Made by a program: the position numbers and the translations under genes | Part shown: positions 9,055-31,802 of the stretch, piece after piece | Layout of the letters: the number at the start of each line of letters is the position of its first letter | Position numbering within the stretch: the stretch's first letter is position 1 | Assembly: GCA_905234705.1 (NCBI GenBank) | Contig: CAJOIB010000025.1 | Location: forward strand, 1 to 35,632 | Source: an uncultured Selenomonadaceae bacterium | GTDB lineage: Bacteria; Bacillota; Negativicutes; Selenomonadales; Selenomonadaceae | Length of the DNA stretch: 35,632 bases | Direction of reading: 5' to 3' | The notes under the pieces: generated by a model | Seen by the model: the letters and a program-made list of their open reading frames with translations, nothing else | The model's database searches: none | What the model was told of the DNA's origin: nothing

Positions 9055-9197
9055 CAGTATCAACTTTCTTTCTCAGTCGCCGAAAGAAAGTTGCAAAGAA
9101 AGTGCTTGTTTGCCGGATAATTCGCGTCACGCTCAACTAAAGAGCATGCCTTGCGGCAAACGGGTTCGGCGCGCATCCGTGCGCGCTCCTATTTGCA
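9055..9197. repeat. Three-hairpin intergenic element, copy A
   Basis: Hairpin 1 pairs AACTTTCTTTC (9062-9072) with GAAAGAAAGTT (9082-9092) perfectly over 11 bases. GCAAAGAAAG follows. Hairpin 2 has an 8-base closing stem GTTTGCCG (9108-9115) with CGGCAAAC (9154-9161). Hairpin 3 pairs GGCGCGCA (9168-9175) with TGCGCGCT (9180-9187) around TCCG. It fills the space between nrdG and the stop codon of rqcH. It is the most divergent of four copies in the window but keeps the same order of stems. Confidence 0.75.
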
Positions 9198-9202
9198 AGT
9201 TT

Positions 9203-10855
9203 TCAGCCGTCAATATAAAGCGTCCGTTGATTCGTGAAAATTACAAAGCCAGGTTTTGCGCCCGAAGGTTTTTTCACAAATTTACAAAGTGTATAGTCAA
9301 CAGGAACGTTTGATGAGCCGCTCGCCTTAGAAAAATTCACAGCCAATTTCGCCGCGTACAACAAAGTTTCAGCCGCCGGTTCAACGCCGCCGCAACGAAT
9401 TATGACGTGCGAGCCGGTAATGTCCTTGGTATGCAGCCAAATGTCATTGTCGTCAGCAATTTTGCAAGTCAAGCGGTCATTCTGCGCGTTATTTTTACCG
9501 ATAAGAATTTCCGTACCGTCAGGCGCGGTGAATTTGAATGGCTCAGATTTTTTGCTAAGCGCAGTGCGTTTGCGATTCTCTTTCAAATAGCCGCCCGCCG
9601 TCAATTCTGCGCGAATTTCTTCAATGTCAGCCAAAGTCGCGCTCGCCGTTAGCGAATGTTCAATGCTCTCAAGGTAAATAATTTCGGCGCGGCACTTGTC
9701 GATTTGCTCCAAAATGTGGCTCGTCGAACGTTTCAGTTTATCGTATTTTTTATAAAAGTTTTGAATGTTCGTGGCGATTGTAAATTTTTTATCCAGCGGA
9801 ATTGAAATTTCGTCGCCGGTTTCGCTGTAAATATTTTTCACAGTCACAATTTCGTCGGCGTGGTCTTTGAATTGATACCGATAAGTGGAAAGGTTATCTG
9901 CGCGAATCCGCCAATCGTCGGCATTTTCGGCGGCGGCAAGTTCACTTTCCAGCACTGTAATTTTATTCGTGGCGCGCCGGAGTTCATTGTGTACCAGCTT
10001 AGAAAATTTTTCCTTATCGGGCGGCGTGTAACTTCCAATCATTTCGTCAGCCGCTTCAAGCATTTCGGAAAGCGTGTCGAAAATTTTTACCGGTTTATCA
10101 AAATAATTCAGCTTAATCGCCGAAATTGCCAAAACTTTGCCGCCATCTTCGACGAGGCACGGCGCAGGTTCAGCGTCGCGAATTTTTATCAGCGCGTCAG
10201 TTAAATCAGTCAAACCGGCTTGATAAACAACCTCATTGACGGTTTGCGGTCCGAAGCCTTGACAAACATTCATTATCGCCTTGTCAATTCGCGCAGGAGC
10301 GGCATTAATCCTTTCGACAATCTCAGAAATATTCGCCGAAAAAATATCCAATTTATTTTGAGTGGGCGGCATTTGATAAATCTGATTGGGCAAAACGGTT
10401 CGGACGCGGCTTGAATTTGTGCCAATTTTTTTCAGCGCGTCGATAATTTTTCCGTCCGCAATTAAAATAATGTTGCTGTATTTGCCGATAAGTTCAACCG
10501 CCAGCGTCACGGTTTGAATTTTGCCGCCCGCGCCGATTGTGTCAATGTCGATAAAAATAATCCGGTCGCGCTCAAATTGGCGAATGTCAGCGATTCTGCC
10601 GCTCTCAAGATTTTTCCGCAATACCATACAAAAAGTCGAAGGTTCGGGCAAATTTTCCTGCGAATTTTTCACGGCGTAAATCGCGGGATTTTGCGGCGCG
10701 ACTGAAATTCTTATCGCGTGGCTTTGATATTGGTTGCGAACCGTGATTGTAAAATTCGCCTTATTCTGCTGAGTAATTTTTTCTACGCGCCCGCCGATTA
10801 AAATTTTCGCCAATTCGGCTGTCAACGCGCGCATTGAAAATCCGTCAAGATTCAT
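9203..10855 (-). CDS. rqcH: RqcH / NFACT family ribosome-quality-control protein
   Basis: RqcH (also called FbpA or NFACT) binds stalled 50S subunits carrying peptidyl-tRNA and recruits tRNA-Ala to add C-terminal alanine tails. The 550-residue product has the family layout. The NFACT-N domain begins MNLDGFSMRALTAEL and includes the D97-R98 pair (EFERDR-like RQFERDRII), known to be needed for tRNA recruitment in Bacillus RqcH. A helix-hairpin region and coiled coil lie at about 270-400. The NFACT-R domain includes NDIWLHTKDITGSHVII. The length is normal. The ATG at 10855 has GAGGTG 5 bases upstream. It follows the terminator of the chemotaxis operon. Confidence 0.94.
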   Translation of the reverse strand: MNLDGFSMRALTAELAKILIGGRVEKITQQNKANFTITVRNQYQSHAIRISVAPQNPAIYAVKNSQENLPEPSTFCMVLRKNLESGRIADIRQFERDRIIFIDIDTIGAGGKIQTVTLAVELIGKYSNIILIADGKIIDALKKIGTNSSRVRTVLPNQIYQMPPTQNKLDIFSANISEIVERINAAPARIDKAIMNVCQGFGPQTVNEVVYQAGLTDLTDALIKIRDAEPAPCLVEDGGKVLAISAIKLNYFDKPVKIFDTLSEMLEAADEMIGSYTPPDKEKFSKLVHNELRRATNKITVLESELAAAENADDWRIRADNLSTYRYQFKDHADEIVTVKNIYSETGDEISIPLDKKFTIATNIQNFYKKYDKLKRSTSHILEQIDKCRAEIIYLESIEHSLTASATLADIEEIRAELTAGGYLKENRKRTALSKKSEPFKFTAPDGTEILIGKNNAQNDRLTCKIADDNDIWLHTKDITGSHVIIRCGGVEPAAETLLYAAKLAVNFSKASGSSNVPVDYTLCKFVKKPSGAKPGFVIFTNQRTLYIDG

Positions 10856-10872
10856 AGCTACACCTCTTGCAC

Positions 10873-10901
10873 AAAAAAATAGCTAGCAGTTTTCACCACT
10901 A
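10873..10901 (-). terminator. Terminator of the chemotaxis/sigma-D operon
   Basis: On the minus strand TAGTGGT-GAAA-ACTGCTA forms a 7-base stem (10884-10901, two G-U pairs) with a GAAA loop. After GCTA comes a run of seven T (10873-10879). It lies 10 bases after the stop of the SwrB-like gene and before rqcH. Confidence 0.6.
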
Positions 10902-10911
10902 ACTTTAATAT

Positions 10912-11670
10912 TTATCGCCGTTCCAACTGGCGGCGCATCATTTGTTGTACTAATTCTATTGCGCTGCGCCCTAATTTCGTTTCGCGCGAAATTTCCTCGA
11001 TTGTTTTGCCGGATAAAAGCATATCGCGTATTTTCGCCGAATCTGCGACTTTTTCCAATTTGGTAATTTTTTTTGGCTGGAATGGCACAACTTTTTTTTC
11101 TGCAGGTTTTGAAGGGGCGTCGGCTGCCTTCATTGACTGCTCTAAAACTTTCGCGAAATCTTCAGCCTGCGTGGCTCGGACTTCGATTGTTTTTGAATCC
11201 GGCGGCTCAGCGGGCTTTATGGTTACTGTGGGCGGCTCGATTTGCGGCTGTACACTTGGCGGAGGTAATTTTTGAACTGCCTGTAATTTCCGTTCGATTA
11301 ATTCAATTTGTTTTTGCATTAGCGAAACGTCTTCAACCGCCTCGTCGAGCCTGGCGAGCAAATCTTTAATTTCAGTCGATTGTCCTTCAGATTTTTTTAG
11401 CAGTTTCTTCAATTCGGCAATGCGCCCTTCCAACTGCGTTCGGTCTCGCGTGGTATCGTCTAATAAATTTTCGATTTGCGAAGCTTGCCCTTCCATGCGA
11501 TTGATTATTTCGTTTGCCGTGCTTTCCAAATCTTTTTTAAAGCGCTCGGTTGAATCCGCAACTTCCTTTCGCTCCAGTTCCTTAGATTTTCGCCGCTTAT
11601 TACTTATCCACACCAACAAAACTATCGCCGCGCCGACCGCCGTCGTTATCAACATTAATTCAGTTATCAC
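10912..11670 (-). CDS. SwrB-like / DUF6115 membrane-anchored coiled-coil protein
   Basis: A 252-residue protein with one N-terminal membrane segment (LMLITTAVGAAIVLLVWI), a basic stop, a long coiled coil (about 30-135) and a Pro-rich linker. A C-terminal helix-turn-helix-like segment follows (IRDMLLSGKTIEEISRETKLG then RSAIELVQQMM). This arrangement matches the DUF6115 family, and the position just after the sigma-D gene is that of Bacillus swrB, which promotes flagellar export-apparatus assembly. Orthology to SwrB is inference from position and architecture; sequence similarity to SwrB was not tested. The GTG start at 11668-11670 overlaps the stop of the preceding gene (GTGA), so it is coupled to it. 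An alternative ATG lies five codons in. Confidence 0.75.
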   Translation of the reverse strand: MITELMLITTAVGAAIVLLVWISNKRRKSKELERKEVADSTERFKKDLESTANEIINRMEGQASQIENLLDDTTRDRTQLEGRIAELKKLLKKSEGQSTEIKDLLARLDEAVEDVSLMQKQIELIERKLQAVQKLPPPSVQPQIEPPTVTIKPAEPPDSKTIEVRATQAEDFAKVLEQSMKAADAPSKPAEKKVVPFQPKKITKLEKVADSAKIRDMLLSGKTIEEISRETKLGRSAIELVQQMMRRQLERR

Positions 11671-11990
11671 AGCGAAATATCCAATAACCGCCCGCGCCTT
11701 GGGTCTACTGCTAATTTTGCTTCGGGCTCTTCGTCATTTTGACGCCGCTTGGTTGCTTTGTAATAATATCCGCCGCCGCGCCCGCGTCTATCCGGATCGT
11801 CTTTAATTGTGCCGCCTTCCGCGTCAGATTTATTCCGAACTTGCGTCTGTTTCAATTCGGCGTCTTTTTCCTGGCGCGTGGTTTCAAAGCCTTGCTGTAC
11901 TGCCGCTTCGTGATTTAAATTGTGCTGTACTTGACTTGCATTTGCCGCGTTTGCGTAAGTCATTTGCACTCCTACTGGCGCAATTTCCAT
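11667..11990 (-). CDS. Small soluble protein in the chemotaxis/sigma-D operon
   Basis: A 107-residue hydrophilic protein starting MEIAPVGVQMTYANAANASQ, with an Asn/Gln/Ala-rich N-terminal half and an Arg/Lys/Gly-rich C-terminal half (DDPDRRGRGGGYYYKATKRR). The last residues (EAKLAVDPRRGRLLDISL) look like a conserved tail. No membrane segment or known domain is visible. The ATG at 11988-11990 has GAGGTG 6 bases upstream and is preferred to a GTG at 11999. It sits between fapA and the SwrB-like gene and overlaps the latter by 4 bases. A motility role is suggested by position only. Confidence 0.75.
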   Translation of the reverse strand: MEIAPVGVQMTYANAANASQVQHNLNHEAAVQQGFETTRQEKDAELKQTQVRNKSDAEGGTIKDDPDRRGRGGGYYYKATKRRQNDEEPEAKLAVDPRRGRLLDISL

Positions 11991-12002
11991 TTCAATCACC
12001 TC

Positions 12003-13661
12003 TTAATAAGCACCTAAAACAATTTCGCCGTCCTCCAAATGCATTGTGCAATGGTGATATTCTTCCTGCACATTTTTAACTATCGAATTAACCGACAACC
12101 GCACGCCTGGATAAATTACATCTTCTGCGCGAATCCTGCCGTGTTTCATTTCCGCCAATTTCGCTTCCAATTCCAATATGCGCTTTTCGTCGCGTTTCAA
12201 CTGTCCGGCTATAGGAAATTGCGAACGCGTCAGAGCATTCAGCTGATTAAGGCGCTCTTGCGGGATTTTGCTCATATCGATTTTTGAAAGTGTGTTAAGC
12301 GTCTGCGTAATGTGCAGCAGTTTTTTCTTGCCTTCCTTGTAACTTTTGCAAACAGCATGATATTCTTTCTGCAAATTAGGATCTACGCCGACCGATACGC
12401 GCGTGATAACGTAAGCGTCATTGCCGATAACTTTTGCTTGAACTTCTTCGCCGGAAACTGCCAAGCCGCCCATAATCTGCCCGTGCTTGCCTTCGACGAT
12501 AATTCTCTTGCCTGCGCGAAGAGTCGAATGTAAAGCCACGTCAACCACGTAAATATCTTTGCCAGCTTCGATAACCGCATTTTCAGCAAACGCAATCCGA
12601 ACGTCGCCCTGCGCGACAACTTTACAACGATTAGCGCCCGTGACGCCGCCGCCTATCGCAACGTTTCTGCCTTCGACTTCGCCACCATTGACACTGCCTT
12701 TAATCTCGACGTCGCCCGTAGCTTTGACTTTGAAACCTTGCTTGACATCGCCGCCAATTACCACTGCGCCGTCAAATTCAATATCGCCCGTCGCCACGCC
12801 CACTGAGCCTTTTATCGTGAGTTGCGGCTCAACGCTAATCTTTGTACCGGTGTCAACAATCTGCCCATTAATCGCCGCGATTAATTGATTTTCGCCGAGC
12901 ACGATTGTATTTTTACCATTTGGCATAGGAATAGGACGCCCATTTTGCGCGGGGACATTATCGCCGAAAATATTTTTGCCTGGCGTGCCTTTCGTCCAAG
13001 GGATTCTAATTGCAAGCGTATCATTTGCTTTAACCAAAACAAACAGATTCAGATTTTTATAATCAACGCGGTCGTATTCGTCCATAACCGGACGCCCTTT
13101 GACGCCCAAATTAAATTTTCTGTCAATGTAAGCATTTTCGCCAGGTATAGGCGGGTCGCCTTCAGCCGCCACGAACATTGAAAAATGCTTAACGCCTTCT
13201 TCAATAGCATCTTCGTCGATACCGTAAACGACGCCTTTACTTTTCAGTTCCGCCATAACCATTTCAGCTGTCGGCAATTTCGAGCCTTTTTTGGTATCGA
13301 ATTTGACGGTAGCCTTCATTTTGTCGCGCGTAATTTCAACGACTATTCGCGCGTATTCGTCATCTTCGTCGCCGATAATTTCTTCTTCGACCTGGTTAAA
13401 TTTTTTTAAGTCTTCTTCGCTAATTTCAATAGGTTCAGCGATTCTTTGCGGCTCGCCGGTAGCTTCACGAACTGTCCGCGCCAGCAATGCCACATCATAA
13501 TCCAATACGCCGTAGTCTTTCAATATTTGGCGCATATCTGAAAGTTCAAATAGCAGTTCATCTTCGACAGGATAAACCGTGAGGTATACGCCGTCATTTC
13601 GGAACTCGTATTTATAGCCCGATTCGGGATTGCCTATCGACGGATAATTTGTATCTGCCAC
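12003..13661 (-). CDS. fapA: FapA/DUF342 flagellar-assembly-like protein
   Basis: A 552-residue protein of the FapA (DUF342) family. The N-terminal region to about residue 160 is acidic. The middle (about 165-420) has the repeated beta-strand pattern of a polymer-like helix, for example IKGSVGVATGDIEFDGAVVI, GDVEIKGSVNGGEVEGRNV and IRAGKDI-like turns. The C-terminus (about 430-500) is coiled coil and ends in a small beta domain (VYPGVRLSVNS-like IYPGVRLSVNS). Members are common in Firmicutes motility clusters, but the molecular role is poorly defined. The start is a GTG with GAGGGGG 7 bases upstream. It follows fliA by 12 bases. Confidence 0.88.
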   Translation of the reverse strand: MADTNYPSIGNPESGYKYEFRNDGVYLTVYPVEDELLFELSDMRQILKDYGVLDYDVALLARTVREATGEPQRIAEPIEISEEDLKKFNQVEEEIIGDEDDEYARIVVEITRDKMKATVKFDTKKGSKLPTAEMVMAELKSKGVVYGIDEDAIEEGVKHFSMFVAAEGDPPIPGENAYIDRKFNLGVKGRPVMDEYDRVDYKNLNLFVLVKANDTLAIRIPWTKGTPGKNIFGDNVPAQNGRPIPMPNGKNTIVLGENQLIAAINGQIVDTGTKISVEPQLTIKGSVGVATGDIEFDGAVVIGGDVKQGFKVKATGDVEIKGSVNGGEVEGRNVAIGGGVTGANRCKVVAQGDVRIAFAENAVIEAGKDIYVVDVALHSTLRAGKRIIVEGKHGQIMGGLAVSGEEVQAKVIGNDAYVITRVSVGVDPNLQKEYHAVCKSYKEGKKKLLHITQTLNTLSKIDMSKIPQERLNQLNALTRSQFPIAGQLKRDEKRILELEAKLAEMKHGRIRAEDVIYPGVRLSVNSIVKNVQEEYHHCTMHLEDGEIVLGAY

Positions 13662-13673
13662 TACTTTACCCCC

Positions 13674-14420
13674 TCATCTGTCAACAAAGTGTTCTTTATT
13701 CCGCGCCAAATAATTGCGCATTCTAAATATCGCTTTGGTATGCAACTGCGAAATTCGCGCTTCGCTCAAGTGCAATATCAAGCTGATTTCTTTCAACGTT
13801 AATTCTTCATAATAATACAATGATACTACCGTGCGTTCCTTTTCCGGTAAGCGGTCAATGGCTTTGGCGAGCATGTCTTTCATTTCCAAAAATTCGATTG
13901 AGTCTGCCGGATTCGCGTCAACCGCTTCTTGCGTGTCGCTTTGTAAATATTCCTCCAGCGGTATTATCGTCGCCGCGTTGCATTGCCCGATTAATGTTTG
14001 CAATTCTTCTAGCGTTATCCCAAGCGCCTCCGCTACTTCCGCGTCCGTTGCACTGCGCCCTAATTCGTTTTCCAATTTATATACCGCTTGCTCGTACTTG
14101 CGAATTTTTTGCCGCATCGTTACCGGTATCCAATCTTTGGAGCGCAAATAATCTATCATCGCCCCGCGGATTCGCACGCCTGCATATGTTTCAAATTTAA
14201 TATTCCTGGATAAATCAAATCGGTCTATCGCGTCCAGCAACCCGAAAAATCCACTGCTCATTAAATCGTCGCGGTCTAGGTGCGGTGGTAAACTTATTGC
14301 CAAGCGCCCTCCCACGATTTTTATCAATGGTAAATAATGCTCCGCTAATTTATTTCGCAATTCTACGCTTTTCGTCGCCTTATATTCGCGCCACACTGCC
14401 GTTACATCAATTTTTTCCAT
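13674..14420 (-). CDS. fliA: RNA polymerase sigma factor for flagellar operons (sigma-28/sigma-D)
   Basis: A 248-residue sigma-70 family protein of the FliA/WhiG group, which directs transcription of late flagellar and chemotaxis genes. Region 2 is seen in DDLMSSGFFGLLDAIDRFD, FETYAGVRIRGAMIDYLR and DWIPVTMRQ. Region 3 covers about 110-165. Region 4 with its helix-turn-helix is LPEKERTVVSLYYYEELTLK followed by EISLILHLSEARISQLHTKA. Length matches the family. The ATG at 14420 has AGGTGG upstream. No flgM anti-sigma gene is in the window. The gene lies in the middle of the che operon, as sigD does in Bacillus. Confidence 0.96.
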   Translation of the reverse strand: MEKIDVTAVWREYKATKSVELRNKLAEHYLPLIKIVGGRLAISLPPHLDRDDLMSSGFFGLLDAIDRFDLSRNIKFETYAGVRIRGAMIDYLRSKDWIPVTMRQKIRKYEQAVYKLENELGRSATDAEVAEALGITLEELQTLIGQCNAATIIPLEEYLQSDTQEAVDANPADSIEFLEMKDMLAKAIDRLPEKERTVVSLYYYEELTLKEISLILHLSEARISQLHTKAIFRMRNYLARNKEHFVDR

Positions 14421-14451
14421 AGTTCACCACCTGCTTCCTGCGCATTTTGCG

Positions 14452-14793
14452 TTATTTTTCGACGTTCGGCAAATCGTTTACATTCATTGGTTGAAAGCCC
14501 TCGGCGGGCGGATTTTCTTCAGTGGTAGCGGCTTCAACTCCGGTATCGCTGACGGCGGGATTTGCGGCGGCTTCCATTTCCGCTTTTAATCGCTGTAACT
14601 TCTTTTCGTGCAATTCACAGTACAAATCATACAGCATCATAAAAAAGTAACTCGCCACGCCCGCAAACGCAAACGAAAATACCGTTCGATAAATTATCGT
14701 CCCAGCGCGCACGACCCCAGATGTTATCCCAGATACCAGCACGATTAGCATACACACTAGCCCTATTACCAATGCTATTATTATCGTCTTCAC
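14452..14793 (-). CDS. Small membrane protein between cheD and fliA
   Basis: A 113-residue protein with two membrane segments, about residues 3-24 (TIIIALVIGLVCMLIVLVSG) and 36-57 (YRTVFSFAFAGVASYFFMML). A charged helical, probably cytoplasmic tail follows (ELHEKKLQRLKAEMEAAAN) and ends in an acidic Pro-rich end. The GTG start at 14793 has TAGGTGA 6 bases upstream, 10 bases after the cheD stop. The family is not recognised. Its place in the operon suggests a role in motility or its assembly, without direct evidence. Confidence 0.75.
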   Translation of the reverse strand: MKTIIIALVIGLVCMLIVLVSGITSGVVRAGTIIYRTVFSFAFAGVASYFFMMLYDLYCELHEKKLQRLKAEMEAAANPAVSDTGVEAATTEENPPAEGFQPMNVNDLPNVEK

Positions 14794-14803
14794 GGCTATT
14801 CAC

Positions 14804-15906: not shown

Positions 15907-15921
15907 AAAAATAGCCTCCAA

Positions 15922-16398: not shown

Positions 16399-16410
16399 AG
16401 TAACACATCC

Positions 16411-18558: not shown

Positions 18559-18574
18559 TCATATTCCTCCTGTT

Positions 18575-20560: not shown

Positions 20561-20744
20561 TTAATCGGCATTTCTTTCTTTTTGTAAAAAGCAAGAAACG
20601 CCTAGCAAAGAAAGAAAAACAGATGAAAATTGGTCGTGGAAATCCTTGACAAGTGCTAGAGCAACTGGCGGGCAGCCGCGCATTAGTCGCATCACGCGAC
20701 TAGGCGCGGGGGCGCTCATCCGTGAGCGCCCTCACCTATTGCGT
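20561..20744. repeat. Three-hairpin intergenic element, copy B
   Basis: Hairpin 1 pairs TTTCTTTCTTTTT (20571-20583) with AAAAAGCAAGAAA (20586-20598) with one mismatch. GCAAAGAAAG follows, then about 45 bases not found in the other copies. Hairpin 2 has stem CCGCGC (20676-20681) with GCGCGG (20704-20709) and inner stem AGTCGC (20685-20690) with GCGACT (20696-20701). Hairpin 3 pairs GGCGCTCA (20711-20718) with TGAGCGCC (20723-20730). The distal end, CTATTGCGTA, lies inside the last codons of tsaC. Confidence 0.8.
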
Positions 20745-23307: not shown

Positions 23308-23342
23308 GCGCGTCACCTCTTTTCAAATTTTGTTGTGAATGT

Positions 23343-23371: not shown

Positions 23372-23398
23372 TTATCAATCTTGCCCCGAAAAAAAATC

Positions 23399-23427: not shown

Positions 23428-23474
23428 ACGCGCGGTATAAGTTTTGGTTTTATTTTTGAAAGTGAGGCAGATTT

Positions 23475-24776: not shown

Positions 24777-24852
24777 GGGATAGTGTAAAGGGAATAGGGA
24801 ATAGGGATTTTTACACTAATCCCTAGCACCTAATTCCTAACCCCTAAAAAAC
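24770..24852. repeat. AGGNNTA-type repeat hairpin after paaK
   Basis: Tandem AGGGAAT units (AAGGGAATAGGGAATAGGG) are followed by inverted units (ATCCCTAGCACC, TAATTCCTAACCCCTAA). The outer TTAGGGGATAG and CTAACCCCTAA arms pair, and AGTGTAAA (24782-24789) pairs with TTTACACT. The first arm includes the paaK stop codon. The same style of repeat lies between cheB and cheA. Confidence 0.55.
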
Positions 24853-24872
24853 GACTGAAAGGAGTTTTTTCC

Positions 24873-25298
24873 ATGAGCGTAAATCAAGTTTCTGTGTTTC
24901 TTGAAAATAAACCTGGTACTCTGAACAAAATGACTGAGATTCTTGCTCAGCACAATATTAATATTCGCGCGTTGTCCCTTGCCGATACTAACGATTTTGG
25001 GATTGTGCGAATGATTGTCAATGATGTTTACGAAGCCACCAATGTTTTGAAGGAAGAAAATTTTGTAGCGACTTTTACACCGGTTTTGGCTTATAAAATT
25101 TCCGATGAAACTGGCACGCTTAACAATTTGCTGAAAGCTTTTACCGATGCTGATGTTAATATCGAATATATGTATGCATTTTCGGGCAAAAAAAATGCGT
25201 ATATGATTTTCCGCGTCAAGGATACTAAAAATGCTGAGTCGGTTTTAGCTAGCAAAGGTTTAAAATCTCTCACGCAAGAAGAAATTGCTGAAGTTTAA
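24873..25298 (+). CDS. Tandem ACT-domain protein
   Basis: A 141-residue protein made of two ACT domains, residues about 1-70 (VSVFLENKPGTLNKMTEILA) and 72-141 (YKISDETGTLNNLLKAFTDA). ACT domains bind small ligands, usually amino acids, and regulate enzymes or act as stand-alone sensors. It probably senses the aromatic amino acid or its derivative for the neighbouring paaK ligase; this is inference from the widespread pairing. The ATG at 24873 has AAAGGAG upstream. Repeat copy C begins 7 bases after the stop. Confidence 0.9.
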   Translation: MSVNQVSVFLENKPGTLNKMTEILAQHNINIRALSLADTNDFGIVRMIVNDVYEATNVLKEENFVATFTPVLAYKISDETGTLNNLLKAFTDADVNIEYMYAFSGKKNAYMIFRVKDTKNAESVLASKGLKSLTQEEIAEV

Positions 25299-25304
25299 AG
25301 TTTG

Positions 25305-25424
25305 TATCAGCATTTCTTTTCACGAAAAGAAACGCTGGCAAAGAAAAGGGCGGCGCGGATAGTCACATCACGTGACTAGCGCGCCGCGGGGGGCGCTCAT
25401 CCTTGAGCGCCTCTCTATTGCGTA
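25305..25424. repeat. Three-hairpin intergenic element, copy C
   Basis: Hairpin 1 pairs TTTCTTTTC (25313-25321) with GAAAAGAAA (25324-25332). GGCAAAGAAAAGG follows. Hairpin 2 has closing stem GCGGCGCG (25350-25357) with CGCGCCGC (25380-25387) and inner stem TAGTCAC (25360-25366) with GTGACTA (25372-25378). Hairpin 3 pairs GGCGCTCA (25392-25399) with TGAGCGCC (25404-25411). A CTATTGCGTA tail follows (25415-25424). It is over 90% identical to copy D in inverted orientation. Confidence 0.85.
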
Positions 25425-25444
25425 GTGTTGTTGGAGGCAATATT

Positions 25445-26476
25445 TTGACGGATAAAATTTCTTTCGCGTCCGACTATCAAGAAGGCGCTCACCCAAAAAT
25501 TATTGACGCGCTAATTCGTACCAATTTAATTAAAAGCGCTGGCTACGGCTCTGACGAATTTTGCCAATCTGCGCGAAAAAAAATTTGCGCGGCGTGCAAT
25601 GCCCCTGACGCTGAAGTTCATTTTATGGTTGGCGGTACTCAAACTAACGCTGTTGTGATAAATTCGGCGCTCAAAAGTTACGAAGGCGTCATTGCGGCGG
25701 AGAGCGGGCATATTTCCATTCATGAGGCGGGCGCAATTGAATTTGGCGGGCACAAAGTTTTTACCTTGCCGCACATTCACGGTAAAATTTCTGCTGATAA
25801 AATCCGTGAGCTGATTGAAAACTTTGAAGGCGACGGTAACCGCGCCCATATGGTTAAGCCGACGATGGTTTATATTTCTCAGCCGACCGAATATGGCACG
25901 CTTTACAGCCTCAGCGAATTAGAAAATATTTCAGCTGTTTGCCGCGAAAAAAATTTGCCGCTCTACCTTGACGGCGCGCGGCTGGCTTATGCTCTTGCAA
26001 CTCCAAAAAATGACGTGACGCTTGCGGATATTGCGCGGCTTTGTGAAATTTTTTATATTGGCGGGACGAAGTGCGGCGCTTATTTCGGTGAAGCTGTTGT
26101 TATGCGCAAAAATTTTATCCCGCATTTCTTCACTATTATGAAACAGCACGGCGCTCTTTTGGCTAAGGGCAGGATTTTGGGGTTGCAATTCGATACCCTA
26201 TTCACTGACAATTTGTATATGAAAATCGGCGAGCCTGCGATTAAAGCGGCTGATAAAATTCGTACGGCTTTGAAAAATCGCGGCTATGAGTTGTACTTTG
26301 ACACGCCGACCAATCAGATTTTTGTTGTGCTTGACGATAAAAAATTGGCTCGGCTGTCCAATGCGGTTGAATTTAGTTTTTGGGAAAAACTTCCGCCCAA
26401 CAAAACGGTTATCAGATTGGCGACCAGTTGGGCGACTCAAGATTCAGATGTGGAAAACTTAATTAAAAATTTGTAA
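25445..26476 (+). CDS. Threonine aldolase family PLP enzyme
   Basis: A 343-residue fold-type I PLP enzyme of the beta-eliminating lyase / low-specificity L-threonine aldolase family, which cleaves threonine or allo-threonine to glycine and acetaldehyde. It starts MTDKISFASDYQEGAHPKI. Motifs are AGYGSDEFCQSA, FMVGGTQTNAVVI, SGHISIHEAGAIE (PLP stacking His), PLYLDGARLAYAL (PLP Asp-Arg) and FYIGGTKCGAYFGE with the Schiff-base lysine. The TTG at 25445-25447 is chosen because GTTGGAGG lies 7 bases upstream; a longer reading to 25403 lies inside repeat copy C. The 3' end overlaps the convergent MBL gene by 14 bases. Confidence 0.9.
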   Translation: MTDKISFASDYQEGAHPKIIDALIRTNLIKSAGYGSDEFCQSARKKICAACNAPDAEVHFMVGGTQTNAVVINSALKSYEGVIAAESGHISIHEAGAIEFGGHKVFTLPHIHGKISADKIRELIENFEGDGNRAHMVKPTMVYISQPTEYGTLYSLSELENISAVCREKNLPLYLDGARLAYALATPKNDVTLADIARLCEIFYIGGTKCGAYFGEAVVMRKNFIPHFFTIMKQHGALLAKGRILGLQFDTLFTDNLYMKIGEPAIKAADKIRTALKNRGYELYFDTPTNQIFVVLDDKKLARLSNAVEFSFWEKLPPNKTVIRLATSWATQDSDVENLIKNL

Positions 26477-27098
26477 ACCACGGACGAAATTTTTCATCGC
26501 GTACGGTAGTTGGCGGCGTATGTCCGGAAAGTAAAATCGTTTCCGCGGGCAATGTCAAAATTTTTTCCTTGATATTTTTAAACAAAGTTTGCTCATCGCC
26601 GCCGTAAAAATCCGTACGCCCATAAGCCGCTTTGAAAATCGAATCGCCCACAAATGCGGCGCTGTCTTTTTCGCTGTAATAAATCGCGCCGTCCGTCGTA
26701 TGTCCGGCAACCGGAATCATCTTCAGCTTAAAATTCGGATTCGCGGCTAAAATAATTTCGCTGTTATCGTCAAGGTACGTCACATTTTCCAAAATTATAT
26801 CCAAGCCAAATTCAGCCGACAAATTCCAAACAGGATTTTCAACATAGGCGCGCCCATTTTTTTGCATACAAACCGGAATATTCAAGGTGCGTTGAATTTC
26901 GGCAACCGCTCCGATATGGTCAAAATGCCCGTGCGTCAGCAAAATTTTTTCAATGGTGAATTTTTGTTTGTCAATTATCTGCAAAAGTTTTTTAGCCTGC
27001 GCGCCAGGGTCAATCAAAAAGCCGTGGCTGGTTTCGTCGTCAATGTAAAAATAAGCGTTGGTGGCAAATACGCCGTGAACTTCAACCGGATAAATCAT
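26463..27098 (-). CDS. Metallo-beta-lactamase-fold hydrolase (glyoxalase II-like)
   Basis: A 211-residue MBL-fold protein. The metal-binding motif is LLTHGHFDHIGA (His56, His58, Asp60, His61), with further ligands in VAGHTTDGAIY, FVGDSIF and LSGHTPPT. This set is typical of the glyoxalase II-like/YcbL group that hydrolyses thioesters such as hydroxyacyl-thiols; the substrate is not known here. Length fits. The ATG at 27098 is 27 bases from the divergent HxlR regulator gene, which may control it. Confidence 0.9.
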   Translation of the reverse strand: MIYPVEVHGVFATNAYFYIDDETSHGFLIDPGAQAKKLLQIIDKQKFTIEKILLTHGHFDHIGAVAEIQRTLNIPVCMQKNGRAYVENPVWNLSAEFGLDIILENVTYLDDNSEIILAANPNFKLKMIPVAGHTTDGAIYYSEKDSAAFVGDSIFKAAYGRTDFYGGDEQTLFKNIKEKILTLPAETILLSGHTPPTTVRDEKFRPWFTNF

Positions 27099-27125
27099 TT
27101 TAACACCGCCTTGGGGAAGATTTTT

Positions 27126-27434
27126 ATGGAAACGAAAAAGGATTGCCCGCTCGAGCGCGCCGTCGATATTCTGAGCGGCAAATGGAAAATCAAACTCATT
27201 TGGATTATTTATGAATGCGGGACAATTCGATTTAATCAGCTGAAACGCGAATTGCCTGGAATTACCGATTTGATGTTATCGAAAATCTTAAAAAATCTTG
27301 TGGCTGAAAATATCGTACACCGCGAACAATTCAATGAAATTCCGCCGCACGTCGAATACTCATTAACTGAAAACGGAATAAAATTAGTTGAATCCTTATC
27401 GGAAATTCGGCAATGGGTACGCGACCAAGATTAG
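27126..27434 (+). CDS. HxlR-family transcriptional regulator
   Basis: A 102-residue winged helix-turn-helix protein: ERAVDILSGKWKIKLIWIIY, TIRFNQLKRELPGITDLMLS, then KILKNLVAENIVHREQF and VEYSLTENG in the wing. It starts METKKDCPLERAV; the single cysteine (Cys7) just before the first helix matches the position of the redox cysteine in YodB/HypR-type regulators. It may therefore sense quinones, aldehydes or disulfide stress (inference). The ATG at 27126 with GGGGAAG upstream is preferred over a longer frame from 26862, which would overlap the MBL gene. It overlaps the convergent FrnE-like gene by 4 bases. Confidence 0.9.
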   Translation: METKKDCPLERAVDILSGKWKIKLIWIIYECGTIRFNQLKRELPGITDLMLSKILKNLVAENIVHREQFNEIPPHVEYSLTENGIKLVESLSEIRQWVRDQD

Positions 27435-28111
27435 CCGTCGAATTTGCAACCGTCAACGCCGCAAGTCATACCGTCAAATGAAGTTTCGGCGAGATAATCT
27501 TCAATCGCCTGCCGGAGAATGTTAACGGGCTGCGCGCCGCTCAAGGTATATTTTTCGCCGATTATGAAAAATGGCACGCCGTGAATACCGAGCATAGTAG
27601 CTTCGCGTTCGTCGGCTCTGACTTCGGCGGCGTACTTATCGCTGTTCAAAATTTCGGCGACTTCTTCAGAATCAAGTCCGCATTCGGCGGCAATTTTTTT
27701 GAGTACGTCAAAATCGGCGAGTTCGAGATTTTTTGTAAAATAAGCGTCAAAAAGTTTCGCGATAATTTCAGTGTGCCCTTTGTCCTGCGCGAATTTTGTA
27801 AGGCGCAGAGCGTCAAAAGTATTCGTATAGCGCGTCGTGGCGTATTTAAAATCAATGCCTTCGCGGCGTCCCATCAAAGAAATCTGTTCGATTCTGTCAG
27901 CCGCCTCAGCCTTGCTCAAACCGTACTTTTCGGCGAATCTGTCAACGGTCGATGAAACAACATTTTTGCTGGCGGCAGGGTCGAGTTCAAAACTTTTAAA
28001 AACAACTTCGATTTTGTCAGCGTCCGGAATTGCGGCAATGGCTTTTTCAAGGCGCTTTTCGCCGATATAACAAAACGGGCAGGCATAATCCGAATAAATT
28101 TCAATCTTCAT
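27431..28111 (-). CDS. FrnE-like DsbA-family oxidoreductase
   Basis: A 226-residue thioredoxin-fold protein without a signal peptide, so cytoplasmic. The active site CPFC (residues 11-14, in YSDYACPFCYIGEKRL), a helical insert (about 50-150) and the cis-proline loop GIHGVPFFIIGEKY place it in the DsbA/FrnE group (2-hydroxychromene-2-carboxylate isomerase-like). A C-terminal cysteine pair (TCGVDGCKFDG) is an addition also seen in some FrnE proteins. The ATG at 28111 has AAGGA upstream and a promoter at 28146-28173. It is convergent with the HxlR gene and forms a likely thiol-stress cluster with it. Confidence 0.9.
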   Translation of the reverse strand: MKIEIYSDYACPFCYIGEKRLEKAIAAIPDADKIEVVFKSFELDPAASKNVVSSTVDRFAEKYGLSKAEAADRIEQISLMGRREGIDFKYATTRYTNTFDALRLTKFAQDKGHTEIIAKLFDAYFTKNLELADFDVLKKIAAECGLDSEEVAEILNSDKYAAEVRADEREATMLGIHGVPFFIIGEKYTLSGAQPVNILRQAIEDYLAETSFDGMTCGVDGCKFDG

Positions 28112-28145
28112 AGTGCGTTCTTCCTTCCAAGAAATATTTTCCGCT

Positions 28146-28173
28146 ATTATACATTTACTAAAATTTTTGGCAA
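28146..28173 (-). promoter_or_regulatory. Promoter for the FrnE-like gene
   Basis: Minus-strand TTGCCA (28168-28173), 16-base spacer, TATAAT (28146-28151), in the 77-base gap after the amidohydrolase gene. Confidence 0.6.
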
Positions 28174-28188
28174 GAACGCAGTTTTTGT

Positions 28189-29040
28189 TTAGATACTATA
28201 CAAAAGTTTAGCGGCATTTTCACCGAGAATTTTATTTTTATCGGCGTCGCTGATTGGCAGATTTTTTATAAAAGCAATGGATTCGTCGGGCGCGCTCCAA
28301 GGGCTGTCAGTCCCGAAAAGAATTTTATCCGCGCCGAAAATTTTGTACAGCGTCATAAATCCATTCTCGTCAAGCAAATTTAAATCGTCTGCCGCCCAAT
28401 GAAAATCACTTCGCGCAGGAATTTTGCCCGTCGAAAAAGCCGTATCAATAAAAACATTCGTACCGGCGAGAAATTCAGCAACTTCAGCCCAACTTTTCCA
28501 GCCGCCCATATGCGCCAACACAAATTTAAAATCGCCAATTTCGCTGATAACATTTCGCGCCATTTGCGGCGTACAGCGCACAACGCCAGGAAAACCAATG
28601 TCAAGTCCGGCGTGCGTCACGACAATTAAATCTAATTCGGCGGCGCGCTCGATTATTCGCAGAAATTTTTTATCGTCCAAATCGGTATCTTGATAAACCG
28701 GATGAATTTTAATCCCGCGCAAGCCCAAATTTTTAATGCGGCTGATTTCTGCGCGATAATTTGTAAAATCCGGATGAATGCAACCGAAACTGATAACGCC
28801 CTGCGCGCTGAATTTTTCTGTGAGCGCGGCGGAACTGTCATTGATTTTTTCGACTTGATGAGTATTGGTAGCAACCGGCAAAACGATTGAGCGGTCGACG
28901 CCAAATTTTTTCATAGAATCTAAAAGCCCGTGCAAAGTCCCGTTGGTAAAAGCGCGCGATTTACTTGTGCGGCTGAGTTTGTCGATAACGTCAGCGGCGA
29001 TTTTGTCGGGGAAAATGTGCGTGTGCATATCAATAATCAT
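28189..29040 (-). CDS. Amidohydrolase-2 family metal-dependent hydrolase
   Basis: A 283-residue TIM-barrel hydrolase of the amidohydrolase-2 family. Metal ligands appear in IDMHTHIFPD (His6, His8), IKIHPVYQD, VVTHAGLDIG, VLAHMGGWKSW and FGTDSPWSAPDES (catalytic Asp). The family includes decarboxylases such as aminocarboxymuconate-semialdehyde decarboxylase as well as hydrolases; the substrate is unknown here. The ATG at 29040 has GGAG upstream. It is divergent from the secreted protein gene, only 42 bases away. Confidence 0.88.
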   Translation of the reverse strand: MIIDMHTHIFPDKIAADVIDKLSRTSKSRAFTNGTLHGLLDSMKKFGVDRSIVLPVATNTHQVEKINDSSAALTEKFSAQGVISFGCIHPDFTNYRAEISRIKNLGLRGIKIHPVYQDTDLDDKKFLRIIERAAELDLIVVTHAGLDIGFPGVVRCTPQMARNVISEIGDFKFVLAHMGGWKSWAEVAEFLAGTNVFIDTAFSTGKIPARSDFHWAADDLNLLDENGFMTLYKIFGADKILFGTDSPWSAPDESIAFIKNLPISDADKNKILGENAAKLLYSI

Positions 29041-29082
29041 TTAATCAGCTCCAAACTTCAAATTTTTCAAAGGAGATATTTT

Positions 29083-29634
29083 ATGTTCAAGAAATTTTTT
29101 ATTGCGGCGATGTTTAGCGTGGTCGTAATTCAATTAAGCGTGTGCGGCGCGAATATGCCGCGAAATGAAATGTATTTAGGCGGGCTCACGGTTGGCTCGA
29201 CGCTCGACGAAATGACTGGAATTTACGGGAATTATGATTCATACAATCCAGGCGTCGAAGGTCTGGCTTTGTACGAATACGGCGACAGCGTGGCTATTGG
29301 CTACAACAGCTTTTCTAAAAAAATAATTTCGATACTGGTGAACGCCAATAACGGCTGGACGACGCCCGCGGGGCTTGCCGTTGGAATGAATATTTCTGAT
29401 TCGGTTGATTTGTACGGCGCTCCGGATTACAGCGAAACCGGCGATTATAAGGCGGCGCATTGTTATTTTTTCTATGACGATTCTGGGAATGTTCGCAAGC
29501 TGGCTTTTATAATTTTGTTCGACAAAAACAGCGGAGAAATTCTTGAAATGCGTTGTTTTGGCAATAACCCGATGCAGAGCGTTGACGAATATTTTTTTGG
29601 GGAAACGCCGCTGAATTATCTGTTAAGTGATTGA
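29083..29634 (+). CDS. Secreted hypothetical protein
   Basis: A 183-residue protein with an N-terminal signal peptide (MFKKFFIAAMFSVVVIQLSV then CGA, possibly a lipobox-like LSVCG). A repeated motif follows: LGGLTVGSTLDEMTGIYGNY (about 32-51) and LAVGMNISDSVDLYGAPDYS (about 93-112). Each half looks like the small fold found in SmpA/OmlA-like proteins, where a strand is followed by a helix ending in YG. I do not recognise the family. The ATG at 29083 has AAGGAG 9 bases upstream. It lies 16 bases before the symporter gene, so they are probably co-transcribed. Confidence 0.8.
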   Translation: MFKKFFIAAMFSVVVIQLSVCGANMPRNEMYLGGLTVGSTLDEMTGIYGNYDSYNPGVEGLALYEYGDSVAIGYNSFSKKIISILVNANNGWTTPAGLAVGMNISDSVDLYGAPDYSETGDYKAAHCYFFYDDSGNVRKLAFIILFDKNSGEILEMRCFGNNPMQSVDEYFFGETPLNYLLSD

Positions 29635-29650
29635 GAGGTAAAAATTTTAA

Positions 29651-31186
29651 ATGAAAATCGCATTACTTATAGCATATTTTGCAGTTTTGATTGGAATAGG
29701 TTTGTACTGCCGCAAGCACGCTACTGACGTTGACGGATTTGTTTTAGGCGGGCGGAGCGTTGGTCCGTGGCTTACGGCGTTTGCTTATGGCACGAGTTAT
29801 TTTTCTGCGGTAGTTTTCGTAGGATACGCCGGACAATTCGGTTGGAAATACGGAATTGCGGCGACTTGGGCGGGTATCGGCAATGCTTTCATCGGCTCGT
29901 TAATGGCGTGGTTTATTTTAGGGCGTCGAACGCGCATAATGAGCCAGCATTTGGATTCCGCCACTATGCCACAATTTTTCGGTAAAAGATTTGGCTCGAA
30001 CTCATTAAAAATCGGCGCGTCGATAATCATTTTTATTTTTATGATACCCTACACGGCGTCGCTGTATAACGGCTTATCCAGATTATTCGGGATGGCGTTC
30101 GACATAGATTATTCGGTGTGTATCGCGCTTATGGCGGTATTGACGGCAATTTACGTAATCGCGGGCGGCTACATGGCAACGGCGATTAACGACTTCATAC
30201 AGGGCTTAGTAATGCTGGTAGGGATATCGGCGGTAATTTATGCGGTGCTGGAGTCTAAGGGCGGCTTTATGGGCGCGCTCGACGGATTAGCGCGAATCAC
30301 TGACGAAAAAGTTGCAACAACGCCAGGAATTTTCGCGTCATTTTTCGGACCAGATCCGCTGAATTTGCTCTTCGTAGTAATTTTAACTTCACTGGGAACT
30401 TGGGGCTTGCCGCAAATGGTACAAAAATTTTACGCCATTAAAAACGAACAGGCAATTCAAAAAGGCACGATAATTTCAACAATGTTTGCGTTCGTAGTGG
30501 CGGGCGGCTGTTACTTTTTAGGCGGATTCGGAAGATTATTTTCCGACCAAATTGACATCGCAGCGAACGGCTTTGACTCAATCGTCCCGACAATGTTATC
30601 CGGTTTATCGGCGGGAATGATAGCGCTCGTAGTAATTTTAGTTCTTTCGGCGTCAATGTCAACCTTATCGTCGCTGGTTATCGCGTCAAGTTCGACGCTG
30701 ACAATCGACTTGATAAGCGGTAACATTGTAAAAAATATGAGCCAATCCGCGCAAGTGTTTTTAATGCGAATATTAATCGTAGTTTTCATAGCAATTTCGG
30801 CGGTATTGGCGCTGATACAATATAAAAGTTCGGTAAACTTTATCGCGCAGTTGATGGGCGTATCTTGGGGCGCAATGGCGGGCGCATTTTTAGCGCCGTT
30901 TATGTATTCGCTGTACTCAAAGAAAGTCACAACGGCGTCGTGTTGGGCATGCTTTTTGTTCGGGACAATTTTAATGACGGCGAATATGTTAATGCGACCG
31001 GAATTTCCGCCGATAATGCAATCGCCAATTAACAGCGGCGCAATCGCTATGCTCGCCGGATTAATCATTGTGCCGGTTGTTAGCCTGTTTACTTCCGCGC
31101 CCGACAAAGATTTGGTTGATAACGCTTTTGCCTGCTACGATAAAGAAACAACAGTTCCGCAAAGCGTTGCTCTTGGTAAAAAATAA
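29651..31186 (+). CDS. Sodium:solute symporter family transporter
   Basis: A 511-residue inner-membrane protein of the SSS family (PutP/PanF-like) with about 13 hydrophobic segments. It shows DVDGFVLGGRSVGPWLTAFA, a typical SSS N-terminal signature, and YVIAGGYMATAINDFIQGLV in the middle. The Na-site serine-rich segment of TM8 is LVLSASMSTLSSLVIASSST. The family imports proline, pantothenate, sugars or carboxylates with Na+; the substrate is not predictable. It starts at an ATG after GAGAGGT. Its stop overlaps the start of the next gene (TAATG). Confidence 0.92.
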   Translation: MKIALLIAYFAVLIGIGLYCRKHATDVDGFVLGGRSVGPWLTAFAYGTSYFSAVVFVGYAGQFGWKYGIAATWAGIGNAFIGSLMAWFILGRRTRIMSQHLDSATMPQFFGKRFGSNSLKIGASIIIFIFMIPYTASLYNGLSRLFGMAFDIDYSVCIALMAVLTAIYVIAGGYMATAINDFIQGLVMLVGISAVIYAVLESKGGFMGALDGLARITDEKVATTPGIFASFFGPDPLNLLFVVILTSLGTWGLPQMVQKFYAIKNEQAIQKGTIISTMFAFVVAGGCYFLGGFGRLFSDQIDIAANGFDSIVPTMLSGLSAGMIALVVILVLSASMSTLSSLVIASSSTLTIDLISGNIVKNMSQSAQVFLMRILIVVFIAISAVLALIQYKSSVNFIAQLMGVSWGAMAGAFLAPFMYSLYSKKVTTASCWACFLFGTILMTANMLMRPEFPPIMQSPINSGAIAMLAGLIIVPVVSLFTSAPDKDLVDNAFACYDKETTVPQSVALGKK

Positions 31187-31674
31187 TGAATAGGCGACAG
31201 CGTAAAAAATTAAAATTTCTGAAGGGCGCAAAACTTACTGACGTGCAACGCTGGAATTTGCATCATACTTTCGCGGCGTATATTGCTAATGGGCTGAGAC
31301 AATTTTTAGCTCACGATATTTCCGGTACGCCGCTAGATCCGCCCAATCAGAAAAAAAGTCCAAATATGACGGCGATGTCTGAAGAAAAATGGCGCGGCAT
31401 TCTCAAGGAAATGTTGTGGGCGTTTGAGCAAGTTGAAAATGAATATCCGGCTAGCCCGCTTAGCAAATGGAACAGCGAACAATTAGCCGAACTTTATAAG
31501 CGCGGAATAATGCCGTTTGAATTTATTGAAAAAGATGCTAATGGACTTGTTCGCGTTAAGGATAATAAGCCGGAAGTTCCAGATGAAATTTGGGTGGCTG
31601 AGGATGAATACAACGTTCGCATTCAGCATGGTGTGAATTTATTTGCCGAGTATTTTTTTAATTTATGGGATTGA
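31186..31674 (+). CDS. Hypothetical protein following the symporter gene
   Basis: A 162-residue soluble protein with a basic start (MNRRQRKKLKFLKGAKLTD), a helical middle (WNLHHTFAAYIANGLRQFLA, MSEEKWRGILKEMLWAFEQV) and the end VRIQHGVNLFAEYFFNLWD. The pattern of a Trp-rich helical body ending in GxxLFAxYFxxLWD is, from memory, shared by a family of uncharacterised phage-linked and gut-bacterial proteins; this was not tested. The start codon overlaps the symporter stop (TAATG), implying coupled translation. No function is assigned. Confidence 0.75.
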   Translation: MNRRQRKKLKFLKGAKLTDVQRWNLHHTFAAYIANGLRQFLAHDISGTPLDPPNQKKSPNMTAMSEEKWRGILKEMLWAFEQVENEYPASPLSKWNSEQLAELYKRGIMPFEFIEKDANGLVRVKDNKPEVPDEIWVAEDEYNVRIQHGVNLFAEYFFNLWD

Positions 31675-31690
31675 ATTTAATTTATCAAAC

Positions 31691-31716
31691 AAAAAAGGCG
31701 CTCAAGGATGAGCGCC
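31691..31716 (-). terminator. Terminator of rpsB-tsf, formed by hairpin 3 of repeat copy D
   Basis: On the minus strand GGCGCTCA-TCCT-TGAGCGCC (31697-31716), an 8-base GC-rich stem, is followed by TTTTTTG. It is a textbook Rho-independent terminator made from the last hairpin of the repeat. Confidence 0.85.
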
Positions 31717-31802
31717 CCCGCGGCGCGCTTGTCACGTGATGTGACAATCCGCGCCGCCCTTTTCTTTGCCAGCGTTTCTTTTCGAGAAAAGAAATGCTGA
31801 TA
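31691..31802. repeat. Three-hairpin intergenic element, copy D (inverted)
   Basis: Read on the minus strand it is almost the same as copy C: TTTCTTTTC-tc-GAAAAGAAA, then GGCAAAGAAAAGG. The middle hairpin has outer stem GCGGCGCG with CGCGCCGC and inner stem TTGTCAC with GTGACAA (31731-31745 core). GGCGCTCA with TGAGCGCC follows. It abuts the tsf stop codon and lacks the CTATTGCGTA tail. Confidence 0.85.

Follow-up and report, generated by a model that had tools for sequence, protein, structure and literature searches.

A dispersed three-hairpin element at gene ends of a Selenomonadaceae genome carries a triplex-like module and differs in subtype at sites shared with a sister genome

Background

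Four intergenic copies of a short, apparently folded element lie within the window, a stretch of 35,632 nucleotides from the genome of an uncultured Selenomonadaceae bacterium, and raise the question of whether the fold is maintained, what it could do at its sites and how its copies come to resemble or differ from each other. The initial annotation of this DNA considered that compensatory changes among the four copies pointed to a structure that is selected or is part of a copying mechanism. We provide here the anatomy of the element, its distribution within and beyond its genus, and a comparison of the sites occupied in two sister genomes.

Results and discussion

Anatomy of the four copies

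All four copies were recovered where they had been annotated, by re-reading the sequence and as covariance-model matches (9058-9189, 20563-20732 and 25305-25413 on the + strand, 31695-31802 on the - strand), and the stem sequences previously quoted for them were correct. Copy C (25305-25413, +) lies 6 nt 3' of the stop codon of ORF 24873-25298 and is composed of hairpin 1 (25308-25336), the box GCAAAGAAAAG (25338-25348), a middle hairpin GCGGCGCG/CGCGCCGC with inner stem TAGTCAC/GTGACTA (25350-25387) and hairpin 3, GGCGCTCA/TGAGCGCC, with a TCCT loop (25392-25411). Copy D, on the - strand, begins immediately 3' of the TAA of ORF 31803-32801 (-), which we take from its sequence to be an elongation factor Ts-like gene (tsf), and displays hairpin 1 at 31771-31799, the box GCAAAGAAAAG at 31759-31769, the middle hairpin at 31720-31757 and a terminator-like hairpin 3 with its T-run at 31691-31716, the latter also found by the consensus scan.

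The two other copies, both on the + strand, vary this plan. In copy A, hairpin 1 (CAACTTTCTTTC ... GAAAGAAAGTTG, 9061-9093) is followed by the box CAAAGAAAG (9094-9102), a putative third strand whose G at position 8 goes with a C-G pair of the stem, by the middle hairpin with outer stem GTTTGCCG/CGGCAAAC (9108-9161) and by hairpin 3 with a TCCG loop (9168-9187). Its middle hairpin encloses a piece of a smaller nested palindrome of 36 nt (9136-9154, +), which occurs in both orientations. Hairpin 1 of copy B (20566-20602) is of a long-stem type with one T.C mismatch, the box GCAAAGAAAGAAAAA (20605-20619) is longer, as is its stem, and about 56 extra nt (20620-20675) separate the box from the middle hairpin CCGCGC/GCGCGG, with inner stem AGTCGC/GCGACT (20676-20709); hairpin 3, with a TCCG loop, follows at 20711-20730.

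Copy number and covariation

Many further copies exist in the genome of the window (hereafter G000; 2.05 Mb, 85% complete, draft in 128 contigs), as had been anticipated: the genome-wide covariance-model search returned 92 matches at E<=0.001, including the 19 copies from which the model was built, and blastn with copy C gave 42, counting itself and a few split copies. Among the 19 model-building copies 95.6% of the cells were paired and changes on both sides occurred at 12 of the 33 pairs, a level reached by none of 500 shuffles; a second measure, that of further pair types, was no higher than in shuffles (330 of 500 equal or higher). The 148 distinct rows fitted to the covariance model were paired in 97.1% of the cells, with both-side changes at 31 of 33 pairs and a covariation score of 0.397, against 0.133 once rows were shuffled and no more than 0.070 when partners were slid. 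Covariation above both controls in this alignment shows the predicted three-hairpin anatomy and agrees with the earlier proposal of a maintained fold. The changes on both arms, previously taken as a sign of selection, do point to a maintained structure; they do not by themselves prove stepwise selection, because whole modules are replaced at shared sites and because template switching can change both arms in a single event, as described in PMC8794818.

Hairpin 1 and its box form a triplex-like module

The T-rich/A-rich hairpin and the GCAAAGAAA box follow each other in the order of a class II (purine-motif) intrastrand triplex, a fold that is predicted here from the letters of the arms. A feature absent from the initial annotation is that the box repeats the purine strand of the hairpin 1 stem in mirror order. 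In the 112 of 141 copies from G000 and its sister genome G006 that could be parsed (the other 29 include several long-stem copies with a single T.C mismatch), A at stem position 8 goes with A in the box in 68 of 68 cases and G with G in 34 of 34, and stem and box agree in 199 of 203 cells over positions 8-12, position 9 being weaker evidence because a G often stands 3' of the box anyway. The same rule was found in a Lentisphaerae genome, where the box has G in 95 of 100 listed C-G-type stems, under a pattern that permits only A or G there, and A in all four T-A-type copies read. This mirror-type link, which templating from an inverted repeat cannot write, is the stronger sign of a selected fold.

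In other phyla, the loop of hairpin 1 often also pairs with bases 3' of the box, which would form a possible pseudoknot; inspection by eye revealed no evident pairing of this kind in the window's genus, where loops are mostly short. Many loops and linkers of this genus fall within the 1-6 nt range of the ITxF search, and several loops from other phyla measure 7-10 nt. According to PMC4666352, the purine-motif triplex is held to form in DNA and not in RNA, bacterial intrastrand triplex motifs are known from catalogues with no clear role assigned to them, and footprinting of the best studied of them did not favour stable folding in the cell.

Distribution across genomes and phyla

Under strict filters, the full three-hairpin model was present in 30 of 36 further genomes of the same genus and in 0 of 23 from elsewhere in the class. 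Loci of Quinella and other Selenomonadaceae present second and third hairpins that look similar by eye. The first module alone (hairpin 1 and box) occurs in multiple copies in genomes scattered over several phyla. Its exact pattern was detected in a single genome, the window's own, among 149 sampled from the window's phylum. Viral contigs yielded 6 stretches and genome contigs at least 118, a hint, given the different sizes of the two collections, that most carriers are not viral.

Placement at gene ends and terminator make-up

With gene ends called by a simple ORF scan, a co-directional stop codon lies within 60 nt of 102 of the 138 copies of G000 and G006 that have flanks, and 95 of them start -7 to +11 nt from such a codon; for 13 copies, neither side has a gene end inside the 60-nt limit. 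These positions in the sequence show a placement at the 3' ends of genes. Set against an intrinsic terminator, in which a GC-rich stem is followed by a T-run, hairpin 3 leads into such a run on the top strand in 70 of the 138 copies and into no clear one in 68, the frequency among 1518 background windows being 7.1%. On the opposite strand, 109 of 141 copies have a T-rich tract past the middle stem. Examined by eye at 30 loci, the tsf site has no separate terminator in the 5 genomes carrying the element, and most of the 25 genomes without it have an ordinary hairpin and T-run there. The scan of the window itself revealed no excess of terminator-like sites over shuffles (24 vs 28.9; 27 vs 27.1), and A and D were the only copies whose hairpin 3 it picked up. 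The composition of the element suggests an intrinsic terminator for both directions, and we infer that, as RNA, it would stop transcription either way. Hairpin 3 and its T-run would act in the direction of the gene, and the middle hairpin with TTTTCTTT behind it (complementary to the box) in the reverse direction.

Gene ends could instead be merely tolerated by a selfish replication-structure element, the triplex hairpin of which would stall or prime DNA synthesis and so copy itself, termination being incidental. The class II order with its mirror rule, the patchy occurrence across phyla and a gene-end bias that is weaker outside the window's genus agree with such an element, as does the finding of only 8 of 90 copies between divergent genes, expected if it is purged from promoters. 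By itself, this explanation accounts neither for starts a few nt from stop codons nor for the terminator make-up of the middle and third hairpins, and we consider it possible and rather unlikely.

The strand that folds

Another explanation, to which we attach a low probability, is that of a structured regulatory RNA made from the opposite strand, for instance one binding CsrA like TwoAYGGAY. Every one of the 112 copies parsed (out of 141, with TCC demanded by the parser) has RTCCNT as the loop of hairpin 3, which reads ANGGAY on that strand, and directly next to the Psychromonas module, on its opposite strand, there is an Rfam TwoAYGGAY match. At the base of hairpin 1, a conserved A.C (in 96 of the 122 rows that have letters there, out of 148) argues for the other strand, where the pair would be G.T. 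Against this, the wobbles of helices 2-4, with the loop-closing pair left out, favour the top strand (57 G.T vs 8 A.C, in an alignment that itself also favours G-U), the commonest middle-hairpin loop, ATCAC, gives no GGA on the opposite strand, and 6 loci of the genus and 2 related ones gave no TwoAYGGAY match at E<=5. The CsrA gene, found in 36 of 41 genomes of the genus, was rejected as a discriminating partner, being nearly universal in the genus and present also where strict filters detect no element (e.g. in G003).

Probable replacement at sites shared with a sister genome

The sister genome G006 (99% complete, 63 matches, a metagenome assembly by its name) has 27 element sites in common with G000, with flanks 90.2% identical. 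At only 2 of these 27 sites is the orthologous copy the best match (median rank 18 of 91), and orthologous copies are 75% identical, random copies 72% and the best copy anywhere 91%. The middle type TTGTCAC accounts for 30 of 47 typed copies in G006 (50 in all) and 6 of 63 in G000 (91 in all). Shared sites, as read in these assemblies, are thereby shown to carry different subtypes, and most changes between the sister genomes are whole-module replacements at common sites. Part of this replacement could be imitated by mis-joining at repeats, as G006 is a metagenome assembly and G000 a draft in 128 contigs. A separate comparison of the two genomes, over retrieved stretches, had no ortholog there for 57 of the 91 copies in G000 and for 15 of the 50 in G006; at five sites the other genome has a remnant at most. 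A clean before/after pair was never found in this G006 comparison, at the tsf site or at an ACT-domain-gene site (30 loci, about half of them script-readable and these, G006 aside, no longer syntenic). What the three comparisons yielded were sites in common, remnants or broken synteny, so that the data bear on replacement and not on insertion itself.

Such replacement would also be expected of a mutational by-product, in which the stems stay paired and alike without the fold being selected, through template switching from arm to arm, which can make and mend stems (PMC8794818), and through ordinary gene conversion. The box speaks against it, since it mirrors a stem strand instead of being its inverted copy and, in at least two phyla, changes together with the stem, and so do the loops of other phyla, which pair with downstream bases using many different sequences; we judge this explanation improbable. 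Movement as a miniature transposon-type element by a Y1 (HUH) transposase, like REP by RAYT or IS200/IS605 derivatives, would fit the hairpin anatomy, the multiple copies and the nested palindrome in both orientations and is very improbable, a resident enzyme being rejected as mobiliser because PF01797, with a positive E. coli control, was not found in three element-rich genomes (G000, G006 and G004, the latter 93% complete with 58 matches) and occurs in 6 of 41 genomes of the genus, 5 above the cut-off.

Proposed explanation: a gene-end repeat overwritten by its own family

The explanation that we favour, and to which we give an even chance, is that of a dispersed gene-end repeat of ~110 bp, whose sequence at a given site gives way to that of other family members. 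Its spread would rely on copying at the level of DNA, either conversion-like or by removal and re-insertion. The folded top single strand, exposed during replication or repair, would be the likeliest substrate for copying from site to site, given that the purine-motif triplex is held to be DNA-only and that G.T far exceeds A.C in helices 2-4. A bolder proposal, which we advance tentatively and hold to be rather unlikely, is a new kind of DNA-level drive element, lacking a gene of its own and spread between phyla, in which the top-strand purine-motif triplex, pseudoknotted in other phyla, would serve as the handle for a copying system that overwrites about 100 gene-end sites with the currently favoured subtype.

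A three-strand rule kept by sequence in at least two phyla, with a possible pseudoknot closing the module in others, is tied here to terminator-like hairpins at gene ends, and the subtype differs at shared sites although flanks have diverged by only ~10%. Taken together, the sequence rule, the gene-end hairpins and the subtype swaps make two open questions testable in laboratory strains: whether intrastrand triplexes arise in cells and have a role there, and what is responsible for copying repeats that lack genes from site to site.

Comparison with known systems

No Rfam family or paper describing the element was found, the literature search giving TwoAYGGAY, BoxC/PIT and general work only; the window has no Rfam match at gathering level, in keeping with the initial failure to recognise a named family. 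At this level, 18 foreign loci gave one tRNA and two TwoAYGGAY. At E<=5, 8 loci gave a group II intron and RAGATH-18 above the cut-off, both away from the element, and three weak matches, only one of which touches it (ctRNA_p42d, L212 2453-2489, over hairpin 3 and its T-run). This sub-gathering match (22.4 bits vs a cut-off of 50) was taken as a terminator-like chance match.

TwoAYGGAY RNA (RF01731) resembles the element by hairpin loops that read ANGGAY on the element's opposite strand, whereas the DNA scanned from the window's own genus gives no match to the Rfam model. REP sequences and REPINs, with their RAYT, are short, dispersed, palindromic and extragenic, as is the element, and have a GTAG-type foot at the hairpin. 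The element differs from them by its triplex-like module, by replacement at shared sites and by the lack of any Y1 transposase found in the three element-rich genomes. Uptake-sequence pairs of Haemophilus, Pasteurella and Neisseria are likewise repeated hairpins thought to end transcription, as presented in PMC2267715, and differ from the element, which has another sequence, three hairpins and the triplex order.

The closest known kind is BoxC/PIT. As portrayed in PMC4666352, these elements (BoxC/PIT/TM_ECO) are dispersed in many genomes with unstable surroundings, and earlier work cited there saw no terminator activity. The element departs from the BoxC/TM_ECO consensus CCCTCNCCCN3-6GGGNGAGGGN3GGGNGAGGG, its arms being A/T-rich (TTTCTTT/AAAGAAA/AAAGAAA vs CCCTCNCCC/GGGNGAGGG/GGGNGAGGG in BoxC/PIT); it also has a GC before the third arm, as written into our search patterns, a module whose loop often pairs behind the third arm in other phyla, and two more hairpins joined to it at gene ends. 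What it shares with them is a dispersed occurrence, unstable surroundings and the succession of pyrimidine arm, loop, purine arm, short linker and mirrored second purine arm, and thus the arrangement that defines class II PIT, with a Y arm, an R arm and a mirrored R third arm on one strand.

Copy number and fold of the element

Direct reading of the window confirmed the four copies of the ~110-bp element reported in the initial annotation, with stems as described there: a T-rich/A-rich hairpin (hairpin 1), a purine box, a middle hairpin and hairpin 3. The model matches lie at 9058-9189, 20563-20732 and 25305-25413 on the forward strand (copies A, B and C) and at 31695-31802 on the reverse strand (copy D). 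In the window's own genome (G000; assembly of 2.05 Mb, 85% complete), blastn with copy C gave 42 matches, including copy C itself and a few split copies. A covariance model (R1) was built from 19 copies, and the whole-genome search proposed in the annotation returned 92 matches (E<=0.001), 91 of which were extracted for later comparisons. Under strict filters, the search of other genomes gave matches in 30 of the 36 others of the genus and in none of 23 from the rest of the class.

The covariation claimed from the four copies was strong by all measures but one of five in the first, 19-copy alignment. Among 148 distinct rows, in an alignment fitted to the covariance model and thus biased towards it, 97.1% of cells are paired, both sides have changed in 31 of 33 pairs, and the covariation score is 0.397 versus 0.133 after shuffling and at most 0.070 with slid partners. 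Hairpins with an RTCCNT loop are rare without the box (2 vs 57 in stretches of G000, 0 vs 44 in those of its sister genome G006), which makes the third hairpin part of the element. Triplex modules (hairpin 1 plus box) whose RTCCNT-loop hairpin is broken or interrupted account for 13/43 and 6/43 in the same stretches, respectively.

Several copies display structural variants. About six stop immediately past the RT of the hairpin 3 loop, a recurrent break point, and have lost the right arm (G000 C87:17811, C18:1469, C3:46259, C27:16488, C97:7570 and C5:2019). The middle hairpin can harbour a nested 36-nt palindrome (ACTAAAGAGCATGCCTTGC...GCAAGCCACGCA), a small element within the large one; a variant of it occupies hairpin 1, and its reverse orientation the hairpin 3 loop (copy A at window 9136-9154; loci L011, L019, L022, L025, L024, L010, L018 and L028). 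Four copies share ~56-60 additional nt that separate the box from the middle hairpin (window 20620-20675 in copy B; G000 C32:7124-7293, C17:40466-40550 and C40:1520-1616). The Y1 transposase family had no match in G000, G006 or G004, three genomes of the genus. A group II intron D1-D4-5 match lies near an element in G000 (L007, 325-471), and a RAGATH-18 RNA near tsf in genome G035 (L212, 1394-1454).

Correspondence between stem and box

Hairpin 1 pairs a pyrimidine arm, TTTCTTT(Y..), with a purine arm, (..R)AAAGAAA, behind which stands the box, AAAGAAA(R..); arm and box are mirror copies, not direct copies, and the box grows with the stem. At stem position 8, T-A is accompanied by box A in 68/68 parsed copies of G000 and G006 and C-G by box G in 34/34, and positions 8-12 agree in 199 of 203 cells, counts which are not independent events since the copies are related; position 9 is weaker evidence because G often follows the box regardless. 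Parsing covered 112 of the 141 copies, and several of the other 29 have a long stem with a single T.C mismatch. In a Lentisphaerae genome, the box has G in 95 of the 100 C-G stems listed (113 in total) and A in 5, the pattern permitting only G or A, and all four T-A stems read by eye have box A. The multi-phylum listing of modules, also read by eye, contained one exception, a C-G stem with box A. Recurrence of the rule in two phyla is a better argument than the copy counts.

Range of the triplex module

A pattern scan of genome contigs retrieved at least 118 stretches, the listed matches including Pseudomonadota, Selenomonadales, Clostridia, Bacteroidetes, Lentisphaerae and others, some of these groups being presumed from genus names. 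Of the 30 genomes from which 30 of these loci come, 29 matched a slightly changed pattern, which is no measure of frequency as they were picked because a related pattern matched them; copies reached 151 per genome, and a reversed control pattern had no match in the 30. Among 149 genomes sampled from the window's phylum the exact pattern occurred in G000 only, and six stretches of viral contigs matched. The module is thus patchy and can be abundant.

In the Lentisphaerae SIG96 genome G091, several modules are paired ~126-130 nt apart (e.g. C47:34958-35121, C34:118-281), and a Lentisphaeria locus (L322) carries array-like runs. In a Psychromonas locus (L099), the Rfam family TwoAYGGAY is matched twice on the opposite strand (7775-7936 and 6101-6262), once directly adjoining a module.

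A pseudoknot may form in other phyla: in the genome-contig scan, the loop pairs by at least 4 bp with the 11 nt behind the box in 49 of 106 distinct sequences (from 133, related ones included), versus a mean of 12.8 and a maximum of 23 in 1000 shuffles; the other 57 fall below 4 bp. The pairings are diverse, e.g. TCGCC/GGCGA, GGTCC/GGACC, CACCC/GGGTG and GTTCCC/GGGAAC. In the window's genus, loops are mostly short and no pseudoknot is evident.

Placement at gene ends and folded strand

The 90 copies of G000 with flanks lie between convergent genes in 34 cases, co-directional genes in 48 (31+17) and divergent genes in 8. Of 138 copies pooled from G000 and G006, 102 lie within 60 nt of a co-directional stop codon, 95 of these at -7 to +11 nt; for 13 copies, the 60 nt to either side contain no gene end. 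Behind hairpin 3, 70 of the 138 copies carry a T-run, versus 7.1% of 1518 background windows; among copies with a co-directional stop, it is found in 38/58 when a convergent gene comes next and in 18/44 otherwise (Fisher p 0.017). On the other strand, 109 of 141 copies have a T-rich tract behind the middle stem. The preference weakens outside the genus (23 convergent, 26 co-directional, 14 divergent and one undetermined, against 80, 257 and 100 for all gaps of these loci), in a set that includes a few own-genus loci and 36 copies inside long, possibly spurious ORFs, 63 at contig edges having been dropped.

Wobbles on the top strand, which carries the box as AAAGAAA, are G.T in 179 cases versus A.C in 10, and 57 versus 8 when helices 2-4 are counted less the loop-closing pair, in an alignment that favours G-U; at one basal position of hairpin 1, however, 96 of the 122 rows with letters show A.C. 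According to PMC4666352, RNA cannot adopt purine-motif triplexes. Together with the wobble bias, this suggests that the triplex rule reflects folded single-stranded DNA of the top strand; the terminator reading would apply to the transcript.

Probable subtype replacement at shared sites

G000 and G006 share both flanks at 27 element pairs (mean flank identity 90.2%). In only 2 of the 27 does the ortholog rank first among the matching copies (median rank 18 of 91), with element identity of 75% for orthologous pairs, 72% for random copies and 91% for the best copy anywhere. Among 17 parsed pairs, hairpin 1 is identical in 2, the middle hairpin in 1 and hairpin 3 in 3; at the copy C site, the flanks are the same in G006 and the element differs. 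Favoured subtypes differ by genome, the TTGTCAC middle stem being found in 30/47 typed copies of G006 versus 6/63 of G000, where the 63 typed copies form 35 distinct module triples. At five further sites the other genome has only a remnant or no element. The sequence of the element has probably been replaced at shared sites; repeat-related assembly error may have produced part of the pattern.

Comparison with intrastrand triplex repeats

Hairpin 1 and the box have the same strand order as that described in PMC4666352 for class II (purine-motif) intrastrand triplexes, of which BoxC/PIT is an example. On sequence grounds, the element is a real, new A/T-rich variant of intrastrand-triplex repeats, coupled at the ends of genes to terminator-like hairpins.
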